Part shown: piece by piece, positions 12,690 through 51,672 of the stretch
How positions within the stretch are numbered: position 1 is the first letter of the stretch
How the letters are laid out: every line of letters begins with the position of its first letter
Origin: Klebsiella electrica
GTDB lineage: Bacteria; Pseudomonadota; Gammaproteobacteria; Enterobacterales; Enterobacteriaceae
Length of the DNA stretch: 64,000 bases
Assembly (NCBI RefSeq): GCF_006711645.1
Contig: NZ_CP041247.1
Coordinates: 4,030,001 to 4,094,000 of the forward strand
Reading direction: 5' to 3'
The notes under the pieces: generated by a model
Database searches by the model: none
The model's input: the letters and a program-made list of their open reading frames with translations, nothing else
Told to the model about the DNA's origin: nothing
Program-made: the position numbers and the translations under genes

Positions 12690-13976
12690 TCAGGCGTTGT
12701 AGGCATTTTCGCCGTGGCTGTTGACGTCCAGACCTTCGCGCTCCTGCTCTTCCGGAACACGCAGACCTACGGTCATATCCGCCACTTTATAACCGATGAA
12801 GGCGACAATACCGGACCAGACGATAGTGATGCCGATACTTTCCAGCTGTACCAGCAGCTGATGGCCCATGGTCACGCCTTCCGCGTAGCCGACGCCGCCC
12901 AGAGAGGTTGCGGCAAAGATACCGGTCAGGATACAGCCCACGATCCCGCAGACACCGTGTACGCCGAACACATCGCACGGGTCATCAACACGCAACCAGC
13001 GTTTCAGAACCGTTACGCCCCACAGACCCGCCAGGCCGGAAGCGATACCCACAATCAGTGAGCCGCCTACGCCGATGTAACCACATGCCGGAGTGACACC
13101 AACCAGACCGGCAATCGCACCGGAACAGGCACCTAACAGAGAAGGTTTACCGCGGGTCGCCCATTCGCCGAAGGTCCAGGCCAGAATGGCCGCAGCGGTC
13201 GCCACAACGGTGTTGACGAAAGCCAGCGCGGCAATTTCGTTCGCCGCACTCGCCGAACCGGCGTTAAAGCCAAACCAGCCAACATACAGGATTGCCGTAC
13301 CGGTGAAGACCATCGGCAGGTTATGCGGTTTGAACGCTTCTTTGCCAAAGCCAACGCGTTTGCCCATCATATAGGCGCCCACCAGACCGGCAACGGCGGC
13401 GTTGATATGCACCACAGTACCACCGGCGAAATCCAGCGCGCCGTGCGTCGCCAGCAGACCACCGCCCCATACCATGTGCGCAATCGGCACATAGGAGAGG
13501 GTCATCCAGACGACGACGAAAATCAGCACCGCGGAGAAGCGAATACGTTCAGCCAGTGCGCCCACGATCAGGCCAACGGTGATACAGGCGAAGGAGCCCT
13601 GGAAAGCGACGTGGATGTACTGATAGAAGGTCCCCATCAGCGCTTTCAGCTCAATGTTTTTCAATAATACCCAGTCGAAGCTGCCGAAGAAGCTGCCGCC
13701 GGTACCAAATGCCAGCGTGTAGCCATAAACGACCCACAGCACGCATACCAACCCAAAGGTGACGATGACCTGGGTCAGCATAGAGAGCACGTTTTTACCG
13801 CGAATCAGGCCGCCATAGAACAGCGCAATGCCCGGAATGGTCATAAACAGCACCAGCGCGGTGCAAATCATCATAAAGGCGTTGTCGGCTTTATCTGCCA
13901 CTGCCGGTGCGGCCATCGCCAGCCCCGGAAGCAGTGCCAGCGCACCCAGACCTGTTTTCATTGTTGCTATTTTCAT
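12690..13976 (-). CDS. amtB: Ammonium transporter AmtB
   Basis: Trimeric inner-membrane ammonium channel, 428 residues as in E. coli. The start at 13976 (MKIATMKTG) gives a cleavable signal ending AMA before APAVADKADN; a frame opening at 13994 adds six residues and is less likely. Eleven membrane helices follow. The twin-His pore is present (H in VPIAHMVWGGG and in VFGVHGVCG) together with the phenylalanine gate region. The cytoplasmic tail VPEEQEREGLDVNSHGENA is intact. It lies 33 bp after glnK in one operon and is blocked by unmodified GlnK when ammonium is plentiful. Confidence 0.97.
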   Translation of the reverse strand: MKIATMKTGLGALALLPGLAMAAPAVADKADNAFMMICTALVLFMTIPGIALFYGGLIRGKNVLSMLTQVIVTFGLVCVLWVVYGYTLAFGTGGSFFGSFDWVLLKNIELKALMGTFYQYIHVAFQGSFACITVGLIVGALAERIRFSAVLIFVVVWMTLSYVPIAHMVWGGGLLATHGALDFAGGTVVHINAAVAGLVGAYMMGKRVGFGKEAFKPHNLPMVFTGTAILYVGWFGFNAGSASAANEIAALAFVNTVVATAAAILAWTFGEWATRGKPSLLGACSGAIAGLVGVTPACGYIGVGGSLIVGIASGLAGLWGVTVLKRWLRVDDPCDVFGVHGVCGIVGCILTGIFAATSLGGVGYAEGVTMGHQLLVQLESIGITIVWSGIVAFIGYKVADMTVGLRVPEEQEREGLDVNSHGENAYNA

Positions 13977-14009
13977 TTTCTCGATCCCCATCACTGTGTG
14001 GTCTGGACG

Positions 14010-14348
14010 TTACAGTGCCGCTTCGTCGGCTTCGCCGGTGCGGATGCGAATAACGCGTTGCAACTCGGCGACAAAAATTTTGCCATCGCCAATTTTTCCG
14101 GTGTAGGCCGCTTTACTAATCACATCAACGACCTCATCAAGCTGATCGTCGGCAATCGCGACATCAATCTTCACCTTTGGCAGAAAATTGACGCTATATT
14201 CGGCACCACGGTACAGCTCGGCGTGGCCTTTCTGACGGCCAAACCCTTTTACCTCAGTGACCGTCAGGCCCTGAATGCCGATGGAAGATAACGCTTCACG
14301 CACATCTTCCAGTTTGAATGGTTTGATTACCACGGTAACCAGCTTCAT
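14010..14348 (-). CDS. glnK: Nitrogen regulatory PII protein GlnK
   Basis: 112-residue PII signal protein that reads 2-oxoglutarate, ATP/ADP and glutamine state and gates AmtB. The start at 14348 (MKLVTVVIKPFKLEDV) is set by the strong GGAGGGG; the reading to 14390 is spurious. The T-loop with the uridylylated tyrosine (GAEYSVNFLPKVK, Tyr51) and the signature KIGDGKIFV are intact. It is first gene of glnK-amtB, controlled by a sigma-54 promoter and NtrC sites just upstream. Confidence 0.97.
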   Translation of the reverse strand: MKLVTVVIKPFKLEDVREALSSIGIQGLTVTEVKGFGRQKGHAELYRGAEYSVNFLPKVKIDVAIADDQLDEVVDVISKAAYTGKIGDGKIFVAELQRVIRIRTGEADEAAL

Positions 14349-14402
14349 AAGTCCCCTCCGCTCTGAATTCGTAATGGCAGCAGCTAACACGCAGGGAATA
14401 AA

Positions 14403-14417
14403 GCAAGGGCTATGCCA
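14403..14417 (-). promoter_or_regulatory. Sigma-54 promoter of glnK-amtB
   Basis: On the minus strand TGGCAT-AGCCC-TTGC matches the -24/-12 consensus TGGCAC-N5-TTGC at 9 of 10 fixed positions. It lies about 55 bp upstream of the glnK start. Confidence 0.88.
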
Positions 14418-14424
14418 GAAATGA

Positions 14425-14449
14425 AAAAGGGCCGCATAGCGGCCCTTTT
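14425..14449 (-). terminator. Terminator of mdlAB, just upstream of the glnK promoter
   Basis: Hairpin with arms AAAAGGGCCGC/GCGGCCCTTTT and a 3-base loop, followed on the minus strand by U's. It ends mdlAB transcription and insulates glnK. Confidence 0.85.
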
Positions 14450-14512
14450 AAGGCAGAAAACAGAAGAACGGCATAAGAAGAAGGCGGAAAAGCACCGGTC
14501 ACAGCCAAAAAC

Positions 14513-14527
14513 GCACCATTACAGTGC
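14513..14527. promoter_or_regulatory. NtrC-binding site upstream of glnK
   Basis: GCAC-N7-GTGC dyad, the NtrC enhancer consensus, about 110 bp upstream of the sigma-54 promoter. A half site GCACC lies at 14546-14550. Both lie in the gap beyond the mdlB stop, on the far side of the mdlAB terminator from the promoter. Confidence 0.75.
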
Positions 14528-14590
14528 ACATAGCGTTACATTTTTGCACCATGCTAAACCACGCCAGCACCACTGCCTGCTTATAGTGCA

Positions 14591-16369
14591 TCAGGCAATC
14601 AGCGACTCTTCCTGCGCGCTGGCGGCCAGCTCTTCACCAGCCAGCTGCAGCTGATACATTTGCCAGTAGCGCCCTTTGGCTGCCAGCAACTGCTGATGAT
14701 TGCCGCGCTCGACGGCCTGCCCACGGTGGAGCACCAGAATGGTGTCAGCCTCAACAATCGTCGACAGGCGATGCGCAATCACTACCAGCGTGGTGTGCTG
14801 GCGAACTTTGGCCAGCGCTTGCTGAATCGCCTGTTCGGTGCCGGAGTCAATATTCGCCGTCGCTTCATCGAGAATCAGAATCTGCGGGGTATCCACCAGC
14901 ACCCGCGCCAGCGCCAGCAGCTGCTTCTGACCCACCGAGAGATTATTCCCCTGCTCGCCCAGCTGCGTGTAAATCCCCTCGCTCATCCCGCGCGCCAGTT
15001 CCGCCAGTTGCACCGACTCCAGCGCTTCCCAGACCTGCGCCTCGCTGATATCGCGACCGAGCGTGACGTTGGCATAAAAGGTATCCGCCAGCACCACCGG
15101 ATCCTGCTGCACCATAGCGACGCCCTGGCGCAACGCGCTGTGGCTCAACGAGGAGAGCGGACGACCGTCAATACGAATTTCCCCTTTGCTCAGCGGGTAG
15201 TAGCCCATCATCAGGCTGGCAAGCGTGCTTTTGCCGCTGCCGGTATGGCCGACCAGCGCCACAAAACCACGGGACGGAATCTCCAGGTTGATATCCTGCA
15301 GCACCAGGCGATCGCCGCGATAAGCAAAAGAGAGGTTCTCAATCGACACCGTGCCGCTGCGCAGCGGCGCGCTATCCTGCCCCCACTCCTGACGCGGGCG
15401 ATCCATCAATTCGAAGACGCGCTCGCCGGCGACCACCGCCTGCTGAAGCATCGATTGCTGGGTCGTCAGCTCAATCAGCGGCTCATTCAGACGCCCAAGA
15501 TAGCTGATAAAGGCGTACAGCACCCCGACTTCAATCGTGCCAGCCGAGCTGAATCCGAACAGCATCAGCAACCCGCAGAGTACCAGCGTTGAGAACAGGC
15601 TCAGCAGCGGGCGCAACAGGAAACCATCGAGGCGCAGCGTTTGCATCCGCGCCAGATAGTGCGCATAGCTGGCTTCGCGCATCCGCTCGCCGAAGCGCGC
15701 CTGCTGGCGGAACTGCTGGATAACCCCCATACCATTGATGACTTCATTAAAGCCGTCGTTGATATCCGCCAGCCAGGCACGCACCCGGCGCACGATCGGC
15801 GTGCTGTAGCGTTGATAAATCATCATCACAATCAACACCGCCGGGAAAATAGTCAGCGCCACCAGCGCCATGCGCCAGTCAAGGCTGAACATCGCCACCA
15901 GCATGGCGCCAATCAGCGCCGCGCTACGCAGCACCGTCGCCACCACCGTGACGTACAGATCGCGGATCACTTCCGTGTCGTTGGTGACGCGGGAGATCAG
16001 CTGCCCGACCGGCTGGGTATCAAATTCACTCAGCGGCTGGCGCAGCGCCGCATCCATCACATCACTGCGTAGCTGCTGCACCACGCCAACGGCGGCGCGA
16101 TTAAACAGCAGCGACTGGTTATAGTGCAGGGTCGCCGCGAGGATCTGTAAGCCGAGATAGGCCACGGCCAGACCGCAGACCAGCTTCAGCGGCACGGCGT
16201 TCTTCGCCACCATATTGTCGATAAAGTAGCTGATCAGCAGCGGGCCACTGACCTCGGCGGCCGCGGCAATCCACATCATCACCACCGCAATAATCAGCGG
16301 CTTACGCCACGGAGAACCGTAGGCCAGCAGACGTTTTAAAGTCGGCCAGAGCTCGGAAAAACTACGCAT
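14591..16369 (-). CDS. mdlB: ABC exporter half-transporter MdlB
   Basis: Multidrug-type ABC exporter subunit, 592 residues (E. coli 593). The start at 16369 ([15 protein letters not shown]) follows family alignment; a longer reading to 16501 runs through the end of mdlA and is rejected. Six membrane helices in the first 320 residues are followed by a nucleotide-binding domain with [17 protein letters not shown] and [12 protein letters not shown]. The start overlaps the end of mdlA by 8 bases, so the two are coupled and should form a heterodimer. The physiological substrate is unknown. Confidence 0.95.
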
Positions 16370-41957: not shown

Positions 41958-41983
41958 AAACCCCGCTCCGGCGGGGTTTTTTA
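41958..41983 (+). terminator. Terminator of cyoABCDE
   Basis: Stem AACCCCGC-TCCG-GCGGGGTT followed by a run of T's. It sits between convergent cyoE and the IclR-type gene and marks the left edge of the accessory island. Confidence 0.9.
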
Positions 41984-41993
41984 TTGCCCGGAG

Positions 41994-42752
41994 TTATCCC
42001 ACCAGCATCGCCTGCGCGCTATAGAGCAGATCCAGATGGTCGCGACACAACGCATCCAGCGAAGTCCGCGACTGGTGAGAAGTCAGGCTCAGCGCCCCCC
42101 AGTACAGCCCTTCCCTGTCGGATAAAGGCACCGCCAGAACCAGCATCCCAATTTCAAACTCCTGCTCGATAGCGGCAAACCCCTGGCGCCGCACCACAGC
42201 AATTTTCTCCATCAGCATCGCCACGTCCGTCACCGTATACGGCGTGCGCTGTTCACGCTTAATACGCCGCAGAATCCTCTCGCACTCCTCTTCCGGCAGC
42301 GAGGCCAGCCAGAGTCGCCCGCCGGCGGTGCAAAATATCGGCACCCGCTCCCCTAACCGCACCGAGGTCGAGTTAAACGGCGTATGTTTGCTGCGCGCGA
42401 TATACACCAGTTCATCTTCATCAACCACCCCCACCGACGCATGTTCTTCGGTGCGGCTGGCAATGTACTCAACGATGGGACGGACCATACGCGGAAACTG
42501 TGCCGAATCGACATACGCCTGACCGAGGCGCAGCGCTTTTGGCGTCAGCCAGTAAGCGCGACCGTCGGTCTGCACATAGCGCTCGTGCAGCAGCGTCAGC
42601 AGAAAACGTCGTGCGGCGCTCTGCGTCAGGCCGCTCATTTTCGCCGCCTGAGGCACGGTGAGACGGGGAAACTCTTTGGAGAAAAGCTGAATCAAGGCCA
42701 GTCCTTTTTGCAGACCGACTATCAAATCGCGCGGATGTATTGTGTTTTGCAT
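41994..42752 (-). CDS. IclR-family transcriptional regulator
   Basis: 252 residues. N-terminal winged helix (about 10-75; LTVPQAAKMSGLTQSAARRFLLTLL) and the IclR effector domain (about 80-250; EHASVGVVDEDELVYIARS, VPIFCTAGGRLWLASL). It is nearest in look to the PcaU/PcaR/PobR subgroup that controls aromatic acid catabolism (my recollection; not searched). It is divergent from an eight-gene catabolic cluster across 152 bp, which contains a perfect palindrome. It probably controls that cluster. Confidence 0.88.
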   Translation of the reverse strand: MQNTIHPRDLIVGLQKGLALIQLFSKEFPRLTVPQAAKMSGLTQSAARRFLLTLLHERYVQTDGRAYWLTPKALRLGQAYVDSAQFPRMVRPIVEYIASRTEEHASVGVVDEDELVYIARSKHTPFNSTSVRLGERVPIFCTAGGRLWLASLPEEECERILRRIKREQRTPYTVTDVAMLMEKIAVVRRQGFAAIEQEFEIGMLVLAVPLSDREGLYWGALSLTSHQSRTSLDALCRDHLDLLYSAQAMLVG

Positions 42753-42786
42753 ATCAGCTCACATTTTTGCAACATTACCATCGATT

Positions 42787-42805
42787 CACTGCGATTATCG
42801 CAGTG
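42787..42805. promoter_or_regulatory. Palindromic operator candidate for the IclR-type regulator
   Basis: Perfect 9-bp arms around one base (CACTGCGAT-T-ATCGCAGTG), 35 bp from the regulator start and 100 bp from the shikimate dehydrogenase-like start. A further GCGATTAA lies at 42811. Size, symmetry and position suit an IclR-family operator. Confidence 0.7.
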
Positions 42806-42904
42806 GTGGTGCGATTAACAACCAATACGTCCGAATTCTGCGTTGTCGCTCTCAGGTTCCGCTGGAATACTTTCACAACATTCATTTAACAAATGAGGTT
42901 TGAA

Positions 42905-43726
42905 ATGGTCAGTGGATTCACGCAGGTGGTTGCCGTTATCGGCCATCCGATTACTCAGGTTAAATCCCCGGAGAACTTCAACCGCTACTTTGCCGACCAG
43001 CAGATGGACAGCGTCATGATCCCGGTCGATATCGCCCCGGAAGCGGTGGCGGATTATTTGCTGGCGTTACGTGGATGGCTGAACATGAGCGGCGTACTGG
43101 TCACCGTGCCGCACAAACAGCGCGCCGCCGCGCTGGTTGATGAGCTAACGCCGCGCGCCCGTCATCTCAACGCGGTGAATGTCATTCGCAAACTGGCGGA
43201 TGGCCGCCTGCAGGGCGATATGCTGGATGGCGTCGGCTTCTCGCTTGCCGCGGCGGCCCACGGTTTTCAGGCTGAAGGGAAGACCGCGCTGCTCTCCGGC
43301 TGCGGCGGCGTCGGCAGCGCCATCGCCTGGGGACTGTGTGAAGCCGGGATTCGCCAGCTGGCGCTACACGACCAGAATCCGGCCACGTTACAGCTGCTGC
43401 ATAACCGCCTCGCCACCCATTTCCCCCAGGTCCATCTCACTACGCTGCCCGACACCCTGAGCGGCCTTGATCTGCTGGTGAACGGCTCCCCGGCCGGGAT
43501 GGCAAACTTCGATCCGCTGCCGCTGCCGCAGGCTTTACTGGAGAGTCTGAGTCCGACAACCCACGTCGCGGACGTCGTGACCGCACCGGCGATCACGCCG
43601 CTGCTGGCTTTCGCCCAGGCGCGCGGCTGCGTAGTACAAACCGGCCCCGAAATGGCGCTGGCGCAGATGAAACTCATGGGGCAGTTCATCGGAGCCATCC
43701 CGCGGGAACAAGGAGCCGCGGCATGA
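42905..43726 (+). CDS. Shikimate/quinate dehydrogenase-like protein (AroE family)
   Basis: 273 residues; the start at 42905 has GAGGT 7-8 bases upstream and is preferred to 42893. The AroE fold is clear: catalytic-lysine motif VTVPHK (K71), NAVN (89-92), catalytic Asp D108 and the nucleotide-binding GCGGVGSAIA (about 135-144). The usual GDNTDG motif reads GDMLDG: Asn and Thr are replaced, while the Asp stays. The entry motif is VKSP in place of SKSP. The set suggests oxidation of a ring hydroxyl in a relative of shikimate or quinate. It is not the housekeeping aroE. The stop overlaps the next start by 4 bases. Confidence 0.82.
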   Translation: MVSGFTQVVAVIGHPITQVKSPENFNRYFADQQMDSVMIPVDIAPEAVADYLLALRGWLNMSGVLVTVPHKQRAAALVDELTPRARHLNAVNVIRKLADGRLQGDMLDGVGFSLAAAAHGFQAEGKTALLSGCGGVGSAIAWGLCEAGIRQLALHDQNPATLQLLHNRLATHFPQVHLTTLPDTLSGLDLLVNGSPAGMANFDPLPLPQALLESLSPTTHVADVVTAPAITPLLAFAQARGCVVQTGPEMALAQMKLMGQFIGAIPREQGAAA

Positions 43727-45398
43727 AAAGCTGGGATGTGATTGTCATCGGTAGCGGCGCCGGCGGGTTTGCCGCCGCCGTCACGGCCTGCTGCAAAGGG
43801 CTGTCGGTGCTGATGCTGGAAAAAGCGCCGCAGTTTGGCGGCACCTCGGCGATTTCCGGCGGAGCGGTATGGATCAACGATACCGACCAGGCACGCGCGC
43901 AGGGGAAAAGCGGCACCGCGGACGCGATCAAAACCTACCTGAAAACCATCATCGGCGAACAGAACTATCGTCCGGACATCGTCGATGCGTTTGTCACTTC
44001 CGGGCGCGAGGCGCTGGCGTTCCTCGAACAAGAGGGCGCGGTGAAGTACAGTCTGCGCCCCTCTCACCGGACTATTACCCTGATGAGCCGGGCGCCGTGG
44101 ACTGCGGACGCGCACTGGAAGTTGTGGAGTACGACGGGCGCCAGCTCGGCGATCGCTTTCGCGATCTGCGCTCTCCCCCACCGGGGATGCTGTTATTTGG
44201 CGGCATGATGGTCAACCGCGTGGATATCCAGCATTTTCTGGAGATGCGCCGCTCGCTGCGCTCGTTATCGCACTGCGCGAAGCTGCTGCTGCGCTATGCG
44301 CGCGATCGCCTCAGCCACCCGCGCGGTACCCGGCTGGCGATGGGTAATGCCCTAATTGCCCGCATGGCCACCGTGGCGCTGCGCAAAGGCATGACGCTCC
44401 GGCTCAACGTCAACGTCCTTTCGCTGGTTGAACACGAGGGCGCGGTCACCGGCGTCAATATTGAATGCGACGGCCAACAGGAGACCTTACAGGCGCGCTG
44501 CGGCGTGGTGCTGGCCGCCGGCGGCTTTGCCGCAGGAGCGCTGGCGGCACGCTACCGGCCGCATACCCGCGAGCATTACTCCATGTCACCTGCCGCCAAT
44601 GATGGCGCCGCATTCCGTCTCGCCGGCGCACTCCATGCCTGTGAAGGCGCCGACCTGTCGTCCAATTTTTTCTGGGCGCCGGTGTCGGTACTGCGCCACG
44701 CCGACGGGCGCGAAGAACGCTTCCCGCACCTGGTCACCGACCGGGCCAGGCCGGGGGTTATCGCCGTCAACCAAAAGGCGGAACGTTTCGTCAACGAATC
44801 AAACTCTTACCACCATTTCGCCAGCGCCATGCAAAGCCAACCCGAAAACGCCCCCTGTTTTCTGATCTGCGATGCTCTGGCGATGAAACGCTACGGCCTC
44901 GGTCTTGCCCGGCCCGCGCCGGTGAACAACGATGCGCTGATCGAGGCCGGCTACCTGCACAAAGCGGACTCCCTCGCCCGGCTTGCTCAACAGCTGGGGC
45001 TTGACGCACAAGCGCTCGCCGGGACGGTGGCCCGCTACAATCGCGATGCCGCGCAGGGAGAGGATCCGCAATTCGCCAAAGGCGGCAACAGCTATAACCG
45101 CGCGATGGGCGATCCGGCCCATCTGCCGAACGCCTGCAATGCCCCGCTGCTGAACGCTCCATTTTATGCCATCACCCTCTACACCGGTGATCTGGGCACC
45201 TCGCGCGGGCTGGTCACCAGCGAGAATGCCCAGGTCCTTAATCAACAACGTCAGCCGATCCAAGGCCTGTATGCCGTGGGTAACGATATGGACTCCATGA
45301 TGGCGGGCACCTACCCCGGTCCCGGCATCACGCTCGGCCCGGCGCTGACCTTCGGCTATCTCTCTGCCCGCCATATGGCACAACAACAGACCCCATAA
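43723..45398 (+). pseudogene. FAD-dependent KstD-like dehydrogenase, frameshifted
   Basis: FAD-binding dehydrogenase of the fumarate reductase/3-ketosteroid-delta1-dehydrogenase family in two frames. The first frame from 43723 carries the Rossmann motif (VIVIGSGAGGFAAAVTACC) and FGGTSAISGGAVWI. The second frame carries the rest to 45398 (VVLAAGGFAAGAL, GIYPGPG-type motif GTYPGPGITLGPALTFGY). The protein changes frame at a run of four C's (44058-44061); one more C would restore LRPLSPDYYPDE and give 558 residues, near its 567-residue paralog. Either a real disruption, a phase-variable tract or a sequencing error. Starts with a 4-base overlap with the AroE-like gene. Confidence 0.85.
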
Positions 45399-45411
45399 CA
45401 GGAGAAACACC

Positions 45412-45732
45412 ATGATCTATGAAAAACGCACCTACACCCTCAATCCGCTGAAAATGGCCGACTGGCTGGCGCTGTACAAAAGCGATGCTTACGCCGTCCA
45501 GACCGAGCACCTCGGCAAGCTGATCGGCTTTTTCTTCACCGAAATCGGCGTGGTCAATCAGGTCGTGCATATCTGGGCTTACGAGAGCCTCGACGATCGC
45601 CTGGTACGCCGGGCGCGCATGGCGCAGGACGAACGCTGGCTGACCTTCTCGCGTAAAAACCGCGAGCTGGCGGCCGTTGAGCGGCTGGAGTCGGTCCTGC
45701 TGCGTCCTGCTGATTTTTCACCGCTGCAATAA
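45412..45732 (+). CDS. NIPSNAP family protein
   Basis: 106 residues, start after AGGAG. It is a dimeric ferredoxin-like alpha/beta-barrel protein of the NIPSNAP family (MIYEKRTYTLNPLKMADWL; VVHIWAYESLDDRLVRRARM). Bacterial members are often found with aromatic or cyclic-acid catabolic genes, in small enzymatic or accessory roles that are not well defined. It lies between the two KstD-like genes. Confidence 0.85.
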   Translation: MIYEKRTYTLNPLKMADWLALYKSDAYAVQTEHLGKLIGFFFTEIGVVNQVVHIWAYESLDDRLVRRARMAQDERWLTFSRKNRELAAVERLESVLLRPADFSPLQ

Positions 45733-45742
45733 GGGGCCGGAG

Positions 45743-47446
45743 ATGAGCGGGCATAAAAAGGTGGATGTGCTGGTCGTCGGTTCCGGCGCGGCGGGGCTTT
45801 CCGCCGCGGTGACCGCCGCCCTCAAGGGTGCCAGCGTCCTGCTGGCCGAAAAGGAGTCGGTTATCGGCGGCACCAGCGCCTGGTCAGGCGGCTGGCTGTG
45901 GATACCGCGCAATCTGCTCGCCCGCGAAGAGGGCATCCAGGAGCAAGAGGACGCGCCGCTGACCTATCTGCAGCACGAGATGGGCGGCCAGCCTGCCGAT
46001 GCGCGCCTGCTCACCTTCCTGCAGCAGGGCCCGGAGATGATCGACTTCTTCCGCCGCCATACGGCGGTGCAGTTTCTCTCCGGCAGTCAGATGCCGGATT
46101 TTCACATGTCGCCGGGCTACGCCCAGGGGGGGCGTTCGGTGACGGCACAACCGTTTGATGGACGCTTGCTGGGTGACTGGCTGCACCGCCTGCGCCCGCC
46201 GCTGGAGACCATCAGCCTGGCCGGGATGGGCATCGCTGGCGGCAACGATATGGCACACTTTTTTAATGCCACCCGCTCCCCGCGATCGGCGGTGTATGCC
46301 GCCCGGCGTCTGCTGCGTCACGGCTGGCAACGACTGCGCGCTGGCCGCGGGCAGCATCTGGTTAACGGTAACGCGCTGATTGGCCGCCTGCTGCGGTCGG
46401 CGCTCGACGCAGGCGTCAGTATTCAACTGAATGCCCCTGTCGTTCGCCTGCTGACATCATCGGCTGGGGTCAGCGGCGCGGTACTGCGCAGCGATGATGG
46501 CGATATTGAGGTTCAGGCCGATGCCGTAATCCTCGCCTGCGGCGGCTTTCCGCACGATCGTCAGCGCCTGGCGCAGCAGGTTCCGCACGCGGCGGGCGGC
46601 TACGGTCACTTCTCCGCCGCGCCGCCGGGTAATCAGGGCGACGGTATCCGGCTCGGGGAATCGGTCGGCGGTCAGTTCGACGCCTCGCTCAAACACGCCA
46701 TGGCCTGGGCGCCGGTCTCCCGCGTCACCCTCGCGAGCGGCCTGCAGCTGGTCTTCCCGCACCTGGTGGAACGCGCTAAGCCGGGGTTTATCGCCGTCTT
46801 GCCCAACGGCAGGCGTTTTACCAATGAGGCCGACTCCTACCACGACTTTATTGCCGCGCTGCTCGCCGCAACGCCTGCGGGAGAACAGCCGGTAGCGTGG
46901 CTGCTGGCCGATAGCCGGACGCTACGTCGCTACGGTCTGGGCCACGCCCGCCCCTTTCCGTTTTCACCCGCAGCATGGCTGCGCACGGGCTATCTCCGCT
47001 CGGCCCCCACGCTGGCGGCGCTGGCGGAGCAATGCGCCATCGATGGCGGGCAGCTGGTGGAGACGGTGGCGCGCTTTAACGACTGCGCCGCGCGAGGGGA
47101 AGACCCGGAATTTCAGCGCGGCGCCTCGGCCTATAACCGGGCGCAGGGAGATGCCAGGCATCCTCATCATCCCACGCTGGGTCCACTGCGCCACGCGCCC
47201 TTTTATGCGGTGCGTATATTACCGGGTTCGCTGGGCTCTTTTAGCGGGCTGAAAACCGATGAACAGGCGCGCGTGCTGGATGCGCGTCAACAGCCGATCG
47301 CTGGTCTCTACGCCATTGGCAATGATATGTCGAGCGTGATGCAGGGGTACTACCCCAGCGGCGGTATTACGCTCGGCCCGGCCATGACCTTTGGCTATCT
47401 GGTGGGGAAAACGCTGGCCGCCAGGATAACAAAAACAGCATCGTAA
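45743..47446 (+). CDS. FAD-dependent KstD-like dehydrogenase, intact
   Basis: 567 residues. The start at 45743 (MSGHKKVDVLVVGSGAAG) follows AGGGG. N-terminal FAD site (VVGSGAAGLSAAVTAALKG, GGTSAWSGGWLWIP) and the C-terminal motif GYYPSGGITLGPAMTFGYL are those of 3-ketosteroid delta1-dehydrogenase-like enzymes, which desaturate a ring next to a ketone. It is a clear paralog of the upstream frameshifted gene (both have PHLV near mid-protein and GNDM near the end). Substrate unknown; a ring ketone formed by the AroE-like enzyme is a reasonable guess. Confidence 0.85.
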   Translation: MSGHKKVDVLVVGSGAAGLSAAVTAALKGASVLLAEKESVIGGTSAWSGGWLWIPRNLLAREEGIQEQEDAPLTYLQHEMGGQPADARLLTFLQQGPEMIDFFRRHTAVQFLSGSQMPDFHMSPGYAQGGRSVTAQPFDGRLLGDWLHRLRPPLETISLAGMGIAGGNDMAHFFNATRSPRSAVYAARRLLRHGWQRLRAGRGQHLVNGNALIGRLLRSALDAGVSIQLNAPVVRLLTSSAGVSGAVLRSDDGDIEVQADAVILACGGFPHDRQRLAQQVPHAAGGYGHFSAAPPGNQGDGIRLGESVGGQFDASLKHAMAWAPVSRVTLASGLQLVFPHLVERAKPGFIAVLPNGRRFTNEADSYHDFIAALLAATPAGEQPVAWLLADSRTLRRYGLGHARPFPFSPAAWLRTGYLRSAPTLAALAEQCAIDGGQLVETVARFNDCAARGEDPEFQRGASAYNRAQGDARHPHHPTLGPLRHAPFYAVRILPGSLGSFSGLKTDEQARVLDARQQPIAGLYAIGNDMSSVMQGYYPSGGITLGPAMTFGYLVGKTLAARITKTAS

Positions 47447-47512
47447 CCGACATCTTACCAGGGACGGCAGTACACATAACAACAATCACCTGCAACTGTA
47501 CCGGAGTCTTTT

Positions 47513-48331
47513 ATGAACATGCGAACTCTGTCCCTCGCCGCGCTCACCGTGCTCGACGTTCCGCCACCGGAACAGGTGCGGATCGCGGCACAAACCGGCT
47601 TTACTCACGTTGGCCTGCGTCTGCTCCCCGCCACGCCGACCGATCCTGACTACGCTATGCTCGGCGATACCGCAACCGTTCGCGCGACCCTCTCTGCGCT
47701 GATGGAGACCGGCATTCGCGTATCAGATGTCGAAATCGTGCGTCTGACGAGCGATTTTTCGCTTAATGCCCGCCTGGAAAGCTTTCTTGAAACCGCCGCG
47801 CGCCTGGGCGCCCGGCAGGTGCTGGTGGCCGGTAACGATAACCACCTGACCCGCAGCGCTGAAAATCTTGCCGCGCTCGCCGAAACCGGCCGGAAGTATG
47901 GTTTAACCATGAATCTGGAGCCGATGCCGTGGACCCAGCTGCGTACCATCGCTGACGCCAGACGGCTGATTTCCGCCAGCGGGCGGGCGGACATCGGGAT
48001 TCTGATTGACGCCATCCACTTCTGGCGCGCGGGAGAGTCGCTCTCCAGCCTCGCCGACCTGCCGCCAGAGTGCCTCAACTATATGCAGCTGTGCGACGCT
48101 CCGGCGCAGATTCCCGATAACGAACAGGAGTTGATCCATCAGGCCCGCGCCGCGCGGAAGGTACCGGGCGAAGGCGGGCTGGATCTGCATGGTCTGATGT
48201 CCGCGCTGCCGACGACGCTACCGGTATCGCTGGAAGTGCCGTTAAGCGGCGCCCAGGGCGCTCTACCGGCCCTCAACCGCGCGCGGTTGCTGTTCAATGC
48301 CGCCCAGTCTTACCTGCACGCTTGCGCATAA
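47513..48331 (+). CDS. Sugar-phosphate isomerase/epimerase-like TIM barrel, 3-dehydroshikimate dehydratase-like
   Basis: 272 residues of the AP endonuclease 2/IolE-type TIM barrel. Likely metal and substrate residues: E136 (NLEPMPW), D166 and H169 (LIDAIHFWR), Q192 (YMQLCD) and E241 (SLEVPL). This spacing is what I recall for fungal/bacterial AsbF-type 3-dehydroshikimate dehydratases, although other isomerases share it. With an AroE-like partner it might make protocatechuate from 3-dehydroshikimate or act on a related intermediate. GGAG precedes the ATG. Confidence 0.78.
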   Translation: MNMRTLSLAALTVLDVPPPEQVRIAAQTGFTHVGLRLLPATPTDPDYAMLGDTATVRATLSALMETGIRVSDVEIVRLTSDFSLNARLESFLETAARLGARQVLVAGNDNHLTRSAENLAALAETGRKYGLTMNLEPMPWTQLRTIADARRLISASGRADIGILIDAIHFWRAGESLSSLADLPPECLNYMQLCDAPAQIPDNEQELIHQARAARKVPGEGGLDLHGLMSALPTTLPVSLEVPLSGAQGALPALNRARLLFNAAQSYLHACA

Positions 48332-48341
48332 GGAAAACCCT

Positions 48342-49706
48342 ATGACTCAGACCCAACGCCTGGATGTCAGAGAGTTAATCAACAACAATCCGCTCAGCCG
48401 TTTTCAGAAACTGGTGGTTTTCTTAGGCTTTTGCGTGATTGCGCTCGACGGTTTTGATATTGCGATTATGGGGTTTATCGCGCCGACGCTGAAGCATGAA
48501 TGGGGCGTGACTAACTATGAGCTCGGCTTCGTCATCAGCGCGGCGCTGATTGGCCTGGCCCTGGGGGCGCTCCTCTCCGGGCCGCTCGCCGACTGGCTGG
48601 GGCGAAAAAAAATCATCGTCAACAGCGTCTTTTTCTTTGGCTTCTGGACTATCGTCACCGCCTTCTCGCAGAACATCGAACAGATGATTTTCTTCCGTTT
48701 TATGACCGGACTGGGACTCGGCGCGGCGATGCCCAATATCGGCACGCTGGTATCGGAGTATGCCCCCGAGCGTCGTCGCTCCTTTCTGATTACGGTGATT
48801 TTTTGCGGCTTTACCTTCGGTGCGGCGGCGGGCGGCTTTTCCGCCTCGTGGCTGATCCCGCGCTTTGGCTGGCATTCGCTGATGGCGCTCGGCGGGATTC
48901 TTCCGCTGTTGTTTGCGCCATTGCTCATCTGGCTGCTGCCGGAGTCAGTGCGCTTTCTGGTGGTTAAACGCGCGCCGGCGGCACGTATTCGGGCGATATT
49001 ACAACGGCTCTACCCGGGACAAATTGCGGATAACGCTGAATTTACACTCCCGGCACAGCCCGTCAACGCCAACGCCATGCGCCTTGTCCTCTCGCGCCAG
49101 TACCGCCTCGGCTCGCTGATGTTATGGCTGGTCTATTTTATGGGCCTGTTTCTGGTTTATATCCTCGGCAGCTGGCTGCCGACGCTGGTCAAAGAGGTCG
49201 GGCTGACCGTCAGCCAGGCCGCGGTGATGACGGCGATTTATCAGGCCGGCGGCACCATTGGCTCTCTGTTCGCCGGGTGGCTAATGGACCGCATTAACCC
49301 CCATCGGGCACTGGGGCTGATTTACGCCATCGGCGGCCTGTTTACAATGGCCATAGGCTACGCCGCCGCCAGTTTTGCGCTGCTGTGCCTGCTGGCCTTC
49401 GTCAGCGGTGCTTGCCTGAACGGCGCGAATACCGGGATGAATGCGCTCTCCGCCCGCTATTATCCGACCCAGGCGCGCGCTACCGGCTCCAGCTGGATGC
49501 ACGGCGTCGGCCGAATGGGCGCCATCCTCAGCGCCTTTGCCGGCGCGGAAATGATGGCGCTCAATCTCAGCTTCGAAAGTGTCTTTTTAATCCTTGGGAT
49601 CCCGGCAGCATTCACCGTCGTCGGTCTGGTGGTGAAGGGGCTGTTTGCCAGCGATGCCGAATCTGCCTCCCCGACCCCCTCCCCCTCACTGAGGAGTCTG
49701 TCGTGA
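48342..49706 (+). CDS. MFS transporter, aromatic acid:H+ symporter (AAHS) family
   Basis: 454 residues, 12 membrane helices. The start at 48342 (MTQTQRLDVRELI) follows AAGGA. Features of AAHS-type carriers (PcaK, MhpT, shikimate-type): DGFDIAIMGFIAPTLK in helix 1 and GPLADWLGRKKI between helices 2 and 3. The likely cargo is an acidic ring compound fed to the neighbouring enzymes. The gene overlaps the next (broken) frame by GTGA. Confidence 0.88.
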   Translation: MTQTQRLDVRELINNNPLSRFQKLVVFLGFCVIALDGFDIAIMGFIAPTLKHEWGVTNYELGFVISAALIGLALGALLSGPLADWLGRKKIIVNSVFFFGFWTIVTAFSQNIEQMIFFRFMTGLGLGAAMPNIGTLVSEYAPERRRSFLITVIFCGFTFGAAAGGFSASWLIPRFGWHSLMALGGILPLLFAPLLIWLLPESVRFLVVKRAPAARIRAILQRLYPGQIADNAEFTLPAQPVNANAMRLVLSRQYRLGSLMLWLVYFMGLFLVYILGSWLPTLVKEVGLTVSQAAVMTAIYQAGGTIGSLFAGWLMDRINPHRALGLIYAIGGLFTMAIGYAAASFALLCLLAFVSGACLNGANTGMNALSARYYPTQARATGSSWMHGVGRMGAILSAFAGAEMMALNLSFESVFLILGIPAAFTVVGLVVKGLFASDAESASPTPSPSLRSLS

Positions 49707-49994
49707 GCTAAATTCGTCTTGCCGTCATTGGCGCGGGCGCCATCGGACGCAAACATATTGCGGTGCTTCGCGCTAACCCACGGGCTGAGCTGGTCGCCCT
49801 CGCCGATCCTTTGCCCGAAGCGCAGGCGCCTGGATATCGCAGGGTATGACAACGTTGAAGCCATGCTGGATGCGGTACAGCCGCAGGGCGTGATTAACGC
49901 CACGCCCAATCTTCTGCATGTGCCCTGCGCGCTGGCGATCCCGCAGATGCAGTGCTGGCGCTATGCGAAGCGGGCGGCTGGCCAGGCGGCCTAA
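49703..49994 (+). pseudogene. Decayed Gfo/Idh/MocA-type oxidoreductase remnant
   Basis: The frame opens with GTG overlapping the MFS stop. The third codon is TAA (49709-49711), where AAA would be expected. Behind it the reading continues as a Rossmann oxidoreductase (AVIGAGAIGRKHIAVLRANP, LVALADPLPEAQ), then shifts frame near 49835 to YDNVEAMLDAVQPQGVINATP and LLHVPCALA before losing the EKP motif. The rest of a normal 330-350-residue protein is missing; a GC-rich tail to about 50070 may be its last piece. Several lesions make sequencing error unlikely. Confidence 0.85.
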
Positions 49995-50013
49995 TCCGCA
50001 TCCACAGGCACCG

Positions 50014-50449
50014 GCGCAATCCCGCATTACGCCGACTTTTCAGCGCGCTTTGGCGTGCGAGGAAAAAGAAAAATAAATTTCATTTAAAGATAAAATGAAT
50101 ATTAATCGTTCATTATTTCAGCGTCCCACGTCGCAGCATCACGCTTTCCCGGCCAGACGCATCAGTTAAACCAGCTTTAATCATCTCATTTCATACGTTT
50201 TTAACCAAACGACCGTTCATCAGGAGCCCAGCGGACGGTGGGATAATCTTGATGATTTTTCGATCCTTCTCGCATAAATAAAAATTTAATTTCATATAAT
50301 GATAAAAATGAAATAAATATTTTTATACCTGTTTTAACCTTCCTCAGGCCGCCGTTTGGTCGCCAGGCTGGCGCCAGAGTCCTGCCCCGCTTCCTCATGC
50401 AGGGAGCAAATCTCATCAGACATCCGTACTTTGTATCAAGGAGAACACC
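50014..50449. promoter_or_regulatory. AT-rich control region with a pair of similar palindromic elements
   Basis: 436 bp upstream of the intact Gfo/Idh gene, no gene seen. Two related elements lie about 211 bp apart: 50077-50104 and 50289-50316. Both read TTTCAT-N-TAA-N-GATAAAA-ATGAA with symmetrical TTTCAT/ATGAA(A) ends. Their base content contrasts with the GC-rich genes around. They could be regulator sites that loop or a duplicated upstream-activating sequence. Confidence 0.5.
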
Positions 50450-51628
50450 ATGTTAAACGGCATGAAACCCCTGCCCCGCTCCCTGCGCTGGGGAATGGTC
50501 GGCGGCGGAGCCACCAGCCAGATTGGCTACAGCCACCGCTCGGCCGCGCTGCGTGACAATGTCTTTACCTTGCTGGCCGGCGCCCTGGATATCGATGCCG
50601 AACGCGGACGCCAGTTTGGTGAACAGCTCGGGATCGCGCCGGAGCGCTGTTATGCCGATTATCAAACGCTGTTTCGCGAAGAGGCGCTGCGTCCTGACGG
50701 TATAGAAGTGGTATCGGTAACCACGCCGAACAATACCCACTTCGCCATTACCAAAGCGGCGCTGGAAGCCGGACTGCACGTGGTCTGTGAAAAACCGCTC
50801 TGCTTTAGCGCCGCCGAAGCCCAGGAGCTGCGGGAGCTGAGCATCAAGCATAACAAAATCGTCGGCGTCACTTATGGCTATGCCGGGTATCAGATGATTC
50901 AGCAGGCGCGGCAGATGATTGCCGACGGGCTGCTCGGGCAGATTCGAATTATCAATATGCAGTTTGCCCATGGTTTTCATAATAAAGCCGTCGAACTGCA
51001 GGCGGAGTCCACCCGCTGGCGCGTCACGCCGAAGTATGCCGGACCAAGCTACGTGCTGGGCGACCTGGCAACGCATCCGCTCTTTGTCGCCGAAACGATG
51101 GCGCCGCATCTCAACATTCGCCGCCTGATGTGTTCCCGCCAGAGTTTCGTCGCATCGCGCGCGCCGCTGGAAGATAACGCCTTTGTGCTGATGGAATACG
51201 ACAACGGCGCCATCGGCTCAATGTGGACCAGCGCGGTCAACAGCGGCGCTATGCACTCGCAAAAGGTGCGGATCGTCGGAGAGAAAGCCAGCATCGAGTG
51301 GTGGGATGAGCATCCCAACCAGCTCAGCTATGAGGTACAAGGTGAGCCGGCGCGGGTGCTTGAGCGCGGCATGCCGTATCTCAGCGCCGCGGCCCTGGCC
51401 GACGATCGGATCGGTGGCGGTCACCCGGAAGGGCTGTTTGAAGCGTGGGCAAACCTCTACCGGCGCTATGCGATAGCCATCGATGCGATGGATCGCGGCG
51501 ATCGTGGGTTTCTGGAGCACTTCTGGTACCCGGATGTTGAAGCCGGTCTGCACGGCGTCTACTGGGTGGAGCAATGCGTGAAATCCGCCGACGCCGGCAG
51601 CCAATGGGTTGACTTTAATTTACAATAA
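50450..51628 (+). CDS. Gfo/Idh/MocA-family oxidoreductase
   Basis: 392 residues, start after AAGGAG. N-terminal NAD(P) Rossmann fold (GMVGGGATSQIGYSHR), the conserved EKP near residue 119 (VVCEKPLCFSAAE) and the C-terminal alpha/beta substrate domain (ITKAALEAGLHV; DLATHPLFVAETM with the catalytic Asp/His region). The long form and GGGATSQ match myo-inositol 2-dehydrogenase-like or 1,5-anhydro-fructose-type enzymes; substrate unknown. It is the last gene of the island, with its own upstream region, then a terminator. Confidence 0.85.
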   Translation: MLNGMKPLPRSLRWGMVGGGATSQIGYSHRSAALRDNVFTLLAGALDIDAERGRQFGEQLGIAPERCYADYQTLFREEALRPDGIEVVSVTTPNNTHFAITKAALEAGLHVVCEKPLCFSAAEAQELRELSIKHNKIVGVTYGYAGYQMIQQARQMIADGLLGQIRIINMQFAHGFHNKAVELQAESTRWRVTPKYAGPSYVLGDLATHPLFVAETMAPHLNIRRLMCSRQSFVASRAPLEDNAFVLMEYDNGAIGSMWTSAVNSGAMHSQKVRIVGEKASIEWWDEHPNQLSYEVQGEPARVLERGMPYLSAAALADDRIGGGHPEGLFEAWANLYRRYAIAIDAMDRGDRGFLEHFWYPDVEAGLHGVYWVEQCVKSADAGSQWVDFNLQ

Positions 51629-51636
51629 ATGCCATC

Positions 51637-51672
51637 AACCAGTGGAGCCTTCGCCACTGGTTTCTTTATTTT
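51637..51672 (+). terminator. Terminator after the island's last gene
   Basis: Stem AACCAGTGG/CCACTGGTT with an 8-base loop, followed by TCTTTATTTT, 9 bp after the stop. Confidence 0.85.

Follow-up and report, generated by a model that had tools for sequence, protein, structure and literature searches.

What would a bacterium do with a gene run that joins a relative of shikimate dehydrogenase, two FAD proteins resembling 3-ketosteroid desaturases, a NIPSNAP protein and a xylose-isomerase-like TIM barrel, and on which compound would these enzymes act? The question is raised by an island of Klebsiella electrica (assembly GCF_006711645.1, contig NZ_CP041247.1), inserted between cyoE and yajR, in which a divergent IclR-type gene is followed by a run of plus-strand genes. 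It lies in a stretch of 64,000 nucleotides (positions 4,030,001 to 4,094,000 of the forward strand), which was analysed as a whole and will be called the window. Our answer, to which we give a probability of about 0.62, is that the island is a catabolic operon for hydroaromatic, i.e., hydroxylated cyclohexane, carboxylic acids, in which either paired desaturases or a branch through the TIM barrel would lead to a hydroxybenzoate. From the protein families, the retained catalytic residues, the gene order, a predicted operator and a link with pca and pob genes, all read from sequence, we infer the reactions, their order, the substrate, the product and the effector. The genes that carry the argument are listed below in window coordinates.

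41994..42752, minus strand: IclR-family regulator, PcaR/PcaU/PobR-like (TIGR02431, IclR_C, HTH_IclR)
42905..43726, plus strand: AroE-like dehydrogenase of the RifI2 class (open reading frame opens at 42893; probable start 42905)
43723..45398, plus strand: FAD1, KstD-like desaturase, in two open pieces with the frame broken near 44,060
45412..45732, plus strand: NIPSNAP protein (PF07978, 110 bits)
45743..47446, plus strand: FAD2, KstD-like desaturase (domain and family matches, structure homologues, tree)
47513..48331, plus strand: xylose-isomerase-like TIM barrel, related to the QuiC dehydratase domain but altered in its pocket (AP_endonuc_2, alignment)
48342..49706, plus strand: MFS transporter of the aromatic-acid:H+ symporter (AAHS) type, PcaK-like (TIGR00895, NF053517)
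~49,704-49,994, plus strand: remnant of GfoA, a Gfo/Idh/MocA dehydrogenase intact in 13 of 17 other island loci

A sequence-only reading had recognised the IclR, AroE, NIPSNAP, TIM-barrel and AAHS families and the KstD-like pair in this run. These assignments hold, with the correction that the FAD1 frame is broken here, and the gene list has been amended by adding the GfoA remnant, which follows the transporter and precedes GfoB, the last gene and a separate unit.

The dehydrogenase and the paired desaturases

The first enzyme of the run is 49% identical to the protein of PDB entry 4k28, RifI2, a member of the shikimate dehydrogenase family from Pseudomonas putida. Compared by eye, it keeps the catalytic Lys and Asp and, like RifI2, lacks the usual carboxylate-site residues Ser14/Tyr215, the motifs being altered in the same way in both, and its sequence places it in the RifI2 class of this family. 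Homologues of 4k28 at 88-92% identity (loci L186, L187 and L183) sit within this same operon. RifI2 reportedly has low activity on shikimate, trace activity on quinate and a preference for NAD+, and is said to have been described as an enzyme only; the operon context differs in suggesting a catabolic role, which was not found in the literature searched.

Both FAD proteins carry the FAD_binding_2 domain and match the ChcC1 and ChcC2 models (NF053676, NF053677) below the cut-off. In KstD numbering, FAD1 (in the copy of Raoultella ornithinolytica, L012) keeps the residues aligned with the catalytic tyrosines Y119, Y318 and Y487 and with G491, and FAD2 keeps the last three, with F at Y119. A tree built from 70 FAD proteins separates FAD1 from FAD2, and each of the two clades joins Enterobacteriaceae with the genus g447, which we take to be Pseudomonas because its AroE copies are up to 92% identical to the P. 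putida protein 4k28. Since both clades are common to these two groups, the tree indicates that the pair has travelled together.

The same genus delimits the core of the operon. A strong AroE match is present in 25 of the 199 g447 genomes searched, and 20 of the 25 loci were fetched, 5 being left out. The core, in which IclR is divergent from AroE-FAD1-NIPSNAP-FAD2, stands alone in 17 of these 20 loci, with neither TIM nor Gfo genes inside the unit; in six of the 17 a TIM gene lies elsewhere in the fetched stretch, apart from the core (L174, L178, L183, L184, L185, L187). A transporter precedes FAD2 in two core loci (L172, L181). L172 and L173 have FAD1 in pieces, and two loci (L173, L175) stop at a contig end. 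Because the core so often occurs without TIM and Gfo, AroE, FAD1 and FAD2 are, as judged by gene order, a natural module, and one dehydrogenase with two desaturases would introduce three unsaturations, which corresponds to the passage from a hydroxycyclohexanecarboxylate to a hydroxybenzoate, i.e., from a cyclohexanol to a phenol.

The TIM barrel and its gene neighbourhood

The residues E136, D166, H169, Q192 and E241, singled out earlier in the TIM barrel, are indeed there, and an alignment matches them to the metal and acid-base residues of QuiC-type dehydratases. The comparison was extended to 39 TIM proteins and 15 QuiC-type rows, 11 of the latter with an intact metal site, using the QsuB dehydratase numbering given in PMC7442255. 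E134, D165, E239 and Arg210 are kept in 39/39 TIM proteins, position 191 is Q or H in all of them, His168 is kept in 32 and Arg64 in 29; the window protein keeps E134/D165/Q191/E239, H168, R64 and R210. Ser206 and Leu136, present together in 11/11 QuiC-type rows with an intact metal site, are found in 0/39 TIM proteins, where the former is replaced by Ala or Gly and the latter by Met, Phe, Ile or Pro. By this alignment, the TIM barrel is a relative of the QuiC dehydratase domain with a different pocket: it shares with QuiC, QsuB and AsbF the fold, the metal ligands and the three basic residues, and differs from them in being a single domain, in the two replacements, and in often coexisting with a QuiC-type enzyme. 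A distinct observation concerns loci L101-L104, which hold two-domain QuiC-like proteins (32-36% identity) lacking the dehydratase metal residues, near a TIM subfamily in which Tyr replaces His168.

Relatives of the TIM barrel occur in 27 of 397 genomes of a phylum sample, its own genome included, and their surroundings were surveyed in 29 loci that cover all 30 matches, the window's own match being left out. AroE is found in 19 of these loci, Gfo and QuiC-like proteins in 13 each, KstD-like FAD proteins in 12, IclR in 11, MFS in 4 and NIPSNAP in 2, compared with zero for each of these families in 20 control stretches from the TIM-bearing genomes. Two loci (L109, L118) hold both FAD types together with AroE, NIPSNAP, TIM and IclR. 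Among the ten TIM loci with a single FAD protein, seven are FAD2-side and three FAD1-side, and the plasmid loci in the tree (L057, L058, L059, L061, L065) are FAD2-side in 5/5. On a Rhodococcus plasmid (L061:1061-9807), MFS-AroE-OYE-AKR-Gfo-FAD-TIM follow one another in one run, which shows that the association of TIM crosses phyla and is possibly an actinobacterial version of the TIM branch. At the other end of the range, no KstD-like FAD lies close to TIM in an Azospirillum plasmid locus (L062), four of the 29 loci (L096, L105, L106, L119) have none of the other families, and L100 has MFS transporters only.

The proposed pathway and its rivals

In the pathway that we propose, the AAHS-type transporter would import the ring acid, the RifI2-class enzyme would use NAD(P)+ to turn a ring hydroxyl into a ketone, and FAD2 and FAD1 would remove hydrogen beside the ketone, twice. 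The desaturated product would tautomerise to a hydroxybenzoate, most likely protocatechuate or 4-hydroxybenzoate, and the pob/pca genes of the host would finish its degradation; protocatechuate would come from 3,4-dihydroxycyclohexanecarboxylate, our first-choice substrate for the core. For NIPSNAP, a part as helper subunit or in the tautomerisation is conceivable. Substrates that carry an additional hydroxyl, of which a dihydroshikimate-type acid is favoured, would probably take another branch, served by the TIM barrel and, where it is intact, by the Gfo-type dehydrogenase; elimination of water would there replace FAD1 desaturation as the third unsaturation. A dehydrogenase, an FAD2-type desaturase and a dehydrating TIM barrel also add up to three, which would account for the occurrence of FAD1 and TIM as partial alternatives and for Enterobacteriaceae that hold both branches, which may take two related substrates. 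The outline given by the sequence-only reading, from import through a ketone and desaturation or dehydration to an aromatic acid, fits the genes, the unsaturation count, the regulator with its operator, and the link with pcaH and pobA.

Regarding the product, the island was scored in 295 sampled Enterobacteriaceae genomes by its NIPSNAP marker (at least 92% identity), which is present in nine (any match in 13); the full gene order was seen in G000, G153 and G009, the other six being scored by NIPSNAP identity. PcaH, the protocatechuate 3,4-dioxygenase, exceeds its cut-off in 30 of the 295, with 9/9 island genomes vs 21/286 others (Fisher 3.5e-10) and, at genus level, 5/5 vs 11/149 (Fisher 6.5e-6), values that are optimistic because of relatedness among the genomes. 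PobA exceeds its cut-off in 28 (9/9 vs 19/286). The LigA domain, a part of gallate dioxygenases, occurs in one of the nine island genomes (G153). The counts for PcaH and LigA make protocatechuate or 4-hydroxybenzoate likelier than gallate, and hence only the first of the two products named earlier, protocatechuate and gallate, remains a likely one.

The gap between the IclR and AroE genes holds the following elements.

42790..42802: predicted operator TGCGATTATCGCA, a palindrome
42810..42819: direct half-site TGCGATTAAC that forms a third box, 20 bp away from the first

The core CGATWATCG is found in 24/24 IclR-AroE gaps examined, 8 from Enterobacteriaceae, 1 from Burkholderia and 15 from g447 (those of L002, L007, L009, L011-L015, L017, L051, L173 and L175 being left out), and the exact 13-mer in 22/24; in shuffled sequence the core is expected with a chance of 0.0009 per 152 bp. 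This core equals that of the PcaR motif WWWRKTCGATWATCGSAYRRW and the PcaU motif TTTGTTCGATWATCGMACAMA as they appear in PMC8222616, the left flank being G here and T there. The same source describes three-box sites for PcaU/PobR, the third box being needed by PcaU, and names quinate/shikimate metabolism among the sets of IclR-regulated families. The IclR protein is predicted, on this likeness, to act from a PcaU/PcaR-like three-box operator. Its score of 269.7 bits to TIGR02431 falls just under the cut-off of 284.75, and the transporter reaches 407.4 bits to TIGR00895 (cut-off 418.55), its second-best NCBIfam match after PcaK (NF053517, 505.4 bits, cut-off 770).

The sequence-only reading had stated that no described pathway has this exact set of genes; the set was indeed not found in the literature searched, but its chemistry has a precedent in the degradation of cyclohexanecarboxylate (chc). 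PMC9795900, citing Yamamoto et al. 2021, describes the conversion of 4-hydroxy- to 4-oxocyclohexanecarboxylate, followed by two consecutive desaturases that lead to 4-hydroxybenzoate. The island has the same succession of one ring-hydroxyl dehydrogenase and two desaturases towards a hydroxybenzoate, whereas its dehydrogenase belongs to the shikimate dehydrogenase family instead of the SDR family, and NIPSNAP, the TIM barrel, Gfo, the AAHS-type transporter and the PcaU-like regulator are additions; it is a variant of paired-desaturase ring aromatization joined to a hydroaromatic-acid gene neighbourhood. Could it simply be the lower part of the chc route, from 4-hydroxycyclohexanecarboxylate to 4-hydroxybenzoate, with the AroE-like enzyme replacing the SDR ChcB? 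The published precedent, the matches of FAD1 and FAD2 to the ChcC1/ChcC2 models below cut-off, PobA in every island genome and a transporter nearest PcaK would all suit this idea, which we nevertheless regard as rather improbable because no P450, the 4-hydroxylase of the chc pathway, was seen among the ten island proteins scanned, because the frequent quinate/shikimate-type neighbour genes point to polyhydroxylated substrates, and because two Enterobacteriaceae genomes have a separate SDR-type sister cluster for that job. These sister clusters (L047:7047-12026, L048:4844-11055) hold an SDR, an AraC-type regulator (assigned by eye), NIPSNAP, OYE and a KstD-like FAD protein 46% identical to FAD2, and they adjoin PobA in L048 and a P450/reductase open reading frame in L047; such a cluster looks like a closer copy of the route from cyclohexanecarboxylate to 4-hydroxybenzoate. 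This frame of L047, at 13265-16075 on the minus strand, is an unusual fusion of 936 residues that unites a BenC-type reductase with an FCD regulator-type domain and with a cytochrome P450.

The TIM barrel leaves room for two other explanations. AsbF-type dehydration of 3-dehydroshikimate, as assigned to it by the sequence-only reading, would make the island an extra quinate/shikimate pathway, with the AroE-like enzyme producing 3-dehydroshikimate and the TIM barrel turning it into protocatechuate. This we do not retain, and consider improbable, since the genome already has a QuiC-type protein, since Ser206 and Leu136 are replaced throughout the TIM family, and since two desaturases would be needless; the low shikimate and trace quinate activity that RifI2 is said to have counts in the same direction. 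The QuiC-type protein belongs to a separate quinate/shikimate-type cluster (L024:5687-10556) in which a two-domain QuiC-like protein is accompanied by an MFS transporter, an AroE-like protein and a TetR-type neighbour (by eye); it scores 750 bits to NF042435 (cut-off 1200) and keeps the nine compared dehydratase residues. That cluster resembles the island in its AroE-family dehydrogenase, TIM-barrel dehydratase domain and MFS transporter, but no desaturase or NIPSNAP gene was recognised in it, and its AroE is ~44% identical to that of the island. QuiC matches are found in 8/9 island genomes, all of them under cut-off and partial in G074 and G195. The TIM barrel might otherwise be an epimerase or isomerase, which would turn ring stereoisomers into the one on which AroE and the desaturases act. 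Tagatose/psicose-type 3-epimerases, which share the metal ligands of the TIM barrel, are also in the fold lists, and a QuiC with intact dehydratase residues is nearby in 9/29 TIM loci; the idea deserves consideration but is on the unlikely side, because Arg64, His168 and Arg210 are mostly kept and sugar epimerases would not be expected to need them. As for a true KstD function, i.e., action of the FAD proteins on steroids or bile acids, the nearest solved structures are indeed 3-ketosteroid dehydrogenases (7p18, 4c3x). We find this very hard to credit, given that the NCBIfam 3-ketosteroid dehydrogenase models NF005882, NF009478 and NF009479 score far under their cut-offs, with FAD2 passing the general model NF004789, that the genes stand beside AroE, a transporter of aromatic-acid type and a regulator of pca type, and that none of the ten proteins scanned was recognised as a member of a steroid-catabolism family.

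The hydroaromatic-acid reading, in turn, has several observations to face. AroE, GfoA, FAD1, FAD2 and TIM together exceed the needs of a single linear route, and the FAD1-side single FAD proteins beside TIM in L116, L122 and L123 would not be expected if FAD1 and TIM simply replaced each other. Three of the 20 g447 loci, as well as the plasmid loci L054, L055, L056 and L064 (fetched by AroE match), have no KstD-like pair, which means that the RifI-class dehydrogenase also occurs without this pair, and the NIPSNAP relatives of L060 and L063 are located apart from the gene set. Moreover, regulator and transporter are both below their curated family cut-offs, common descent and a similar ecology may account for part of the link with pcaH and pobA, in which six of the nine island genomes were counted by their NIPSNAP match alone.

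Distribution and state of the island

Klebsiella, Raoultella, Enterobacter JUb54, Kluyvera and Pseudocitrobacter all have these genes in the same order and at this site; in protein identity, the island studied here comes nearest to the copies of Raoultella planticola and R. ornithinolytica (94-99%). In marker-free genomes, cyoE and yajR are adjacent in 9/10 cases checked, ~125 to 800 bp apart, and the tenth has no cyoE within the stretch examined. Because the order recurs in several genera, cyoE and yajR are mostly adjacent where the marker is missing, and the core is present in a second genus, the island goes beyond chance and is a real, patchily distributed unit. NIPSNAP is its most conserved protein, with 95-97% identity to Kluyvera and Pseudocitrobacter vs ~73-83% for the other structural proteins, and 92-99% across the other 17 island loci.

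The gaps among the first seven plus-strand genes are short or overlapping, the longest being 66 bp, which suggests a single transcription unit. In 5/5 relatives checked, the methionine of the AroE-like gene that corresponds to 42905 is closely preceded by a stop codon, and the start is therefore probably 42905 and not 42893. FAD1, whose frame breaks near codon 113 (~44,060) in this genome, is in one frame in 15/17 other island loci; the exceptions, L002 and L013, have many fragmented genes and look like poor sequence. The record of L002 (CP125156.1, 5.37 Mb), labelled a Klebsiella pneumoniae plasmid, bears cyo, yajQ, panE and yajL and is chromosome-like. Elsewhere, GfoA is intact in the 13 loci mentioned above (for example in R. 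ornithinolytica, L012:13964-14992), absent in three (L002, L005, L050) and fragmented in one (L013). With FAD1 and GfoA broken, the pathway is probably impaired in this particular genome; in relatives both genes are intact.

The borders and the last gene complete the island.

41958..41979, plus strand: terminator-like hairpin behind cyoE, upstream border (consensus match only; such matches are in total at chance level)
50450..51628, plus strand: GfoB, second Gfo/Idh/MocA oxidoreductase, a separate unit outside the conserved operon
51637..51662, plus strand: terminator-like hairpin, downstream border (consensus match only)

GfoB is present in 6/17 other loci, from Klebsiella, Raoultella, Enterobacter JUb54 and one same-genus genome, and in none of the Kluyvera or Pseudocitrobacter loci. 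In L004 and L005 it follows a GPH-type sugar symporter (only that of L004 was scanned), a transporter missing here. Its DNA is 72-73% identical over ~980 bp to five Sinorhizobium plasmid records, a likeness that suggests transfer.

Taken beyond the island, these genes would form a cross-phylum module for reduced relatives of shikimate and quinate, in which RifI2 or Gfo makes the ketone, FAD2 the first double bond, and either FAD1 or a new QuiC-fold dehydratase the third unsaturation, according to the number of hydroxyls; this wider view is a tentative one, with the odds somewhat against it. For the RifI2 class, known from a crystal structure, the operon proposes a job, with a substrate class and assayable partner enzymes, and it would add hydroaromatic acids to the compounds aromatized by paired desaturases. 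It also puts a name to a TIM-barrel family that resembles the protocatechuate-forming dehydratase and differs from it in the pocket. Such enzymes would be of use in converting saturated ring acids to hydroxybenzoates.

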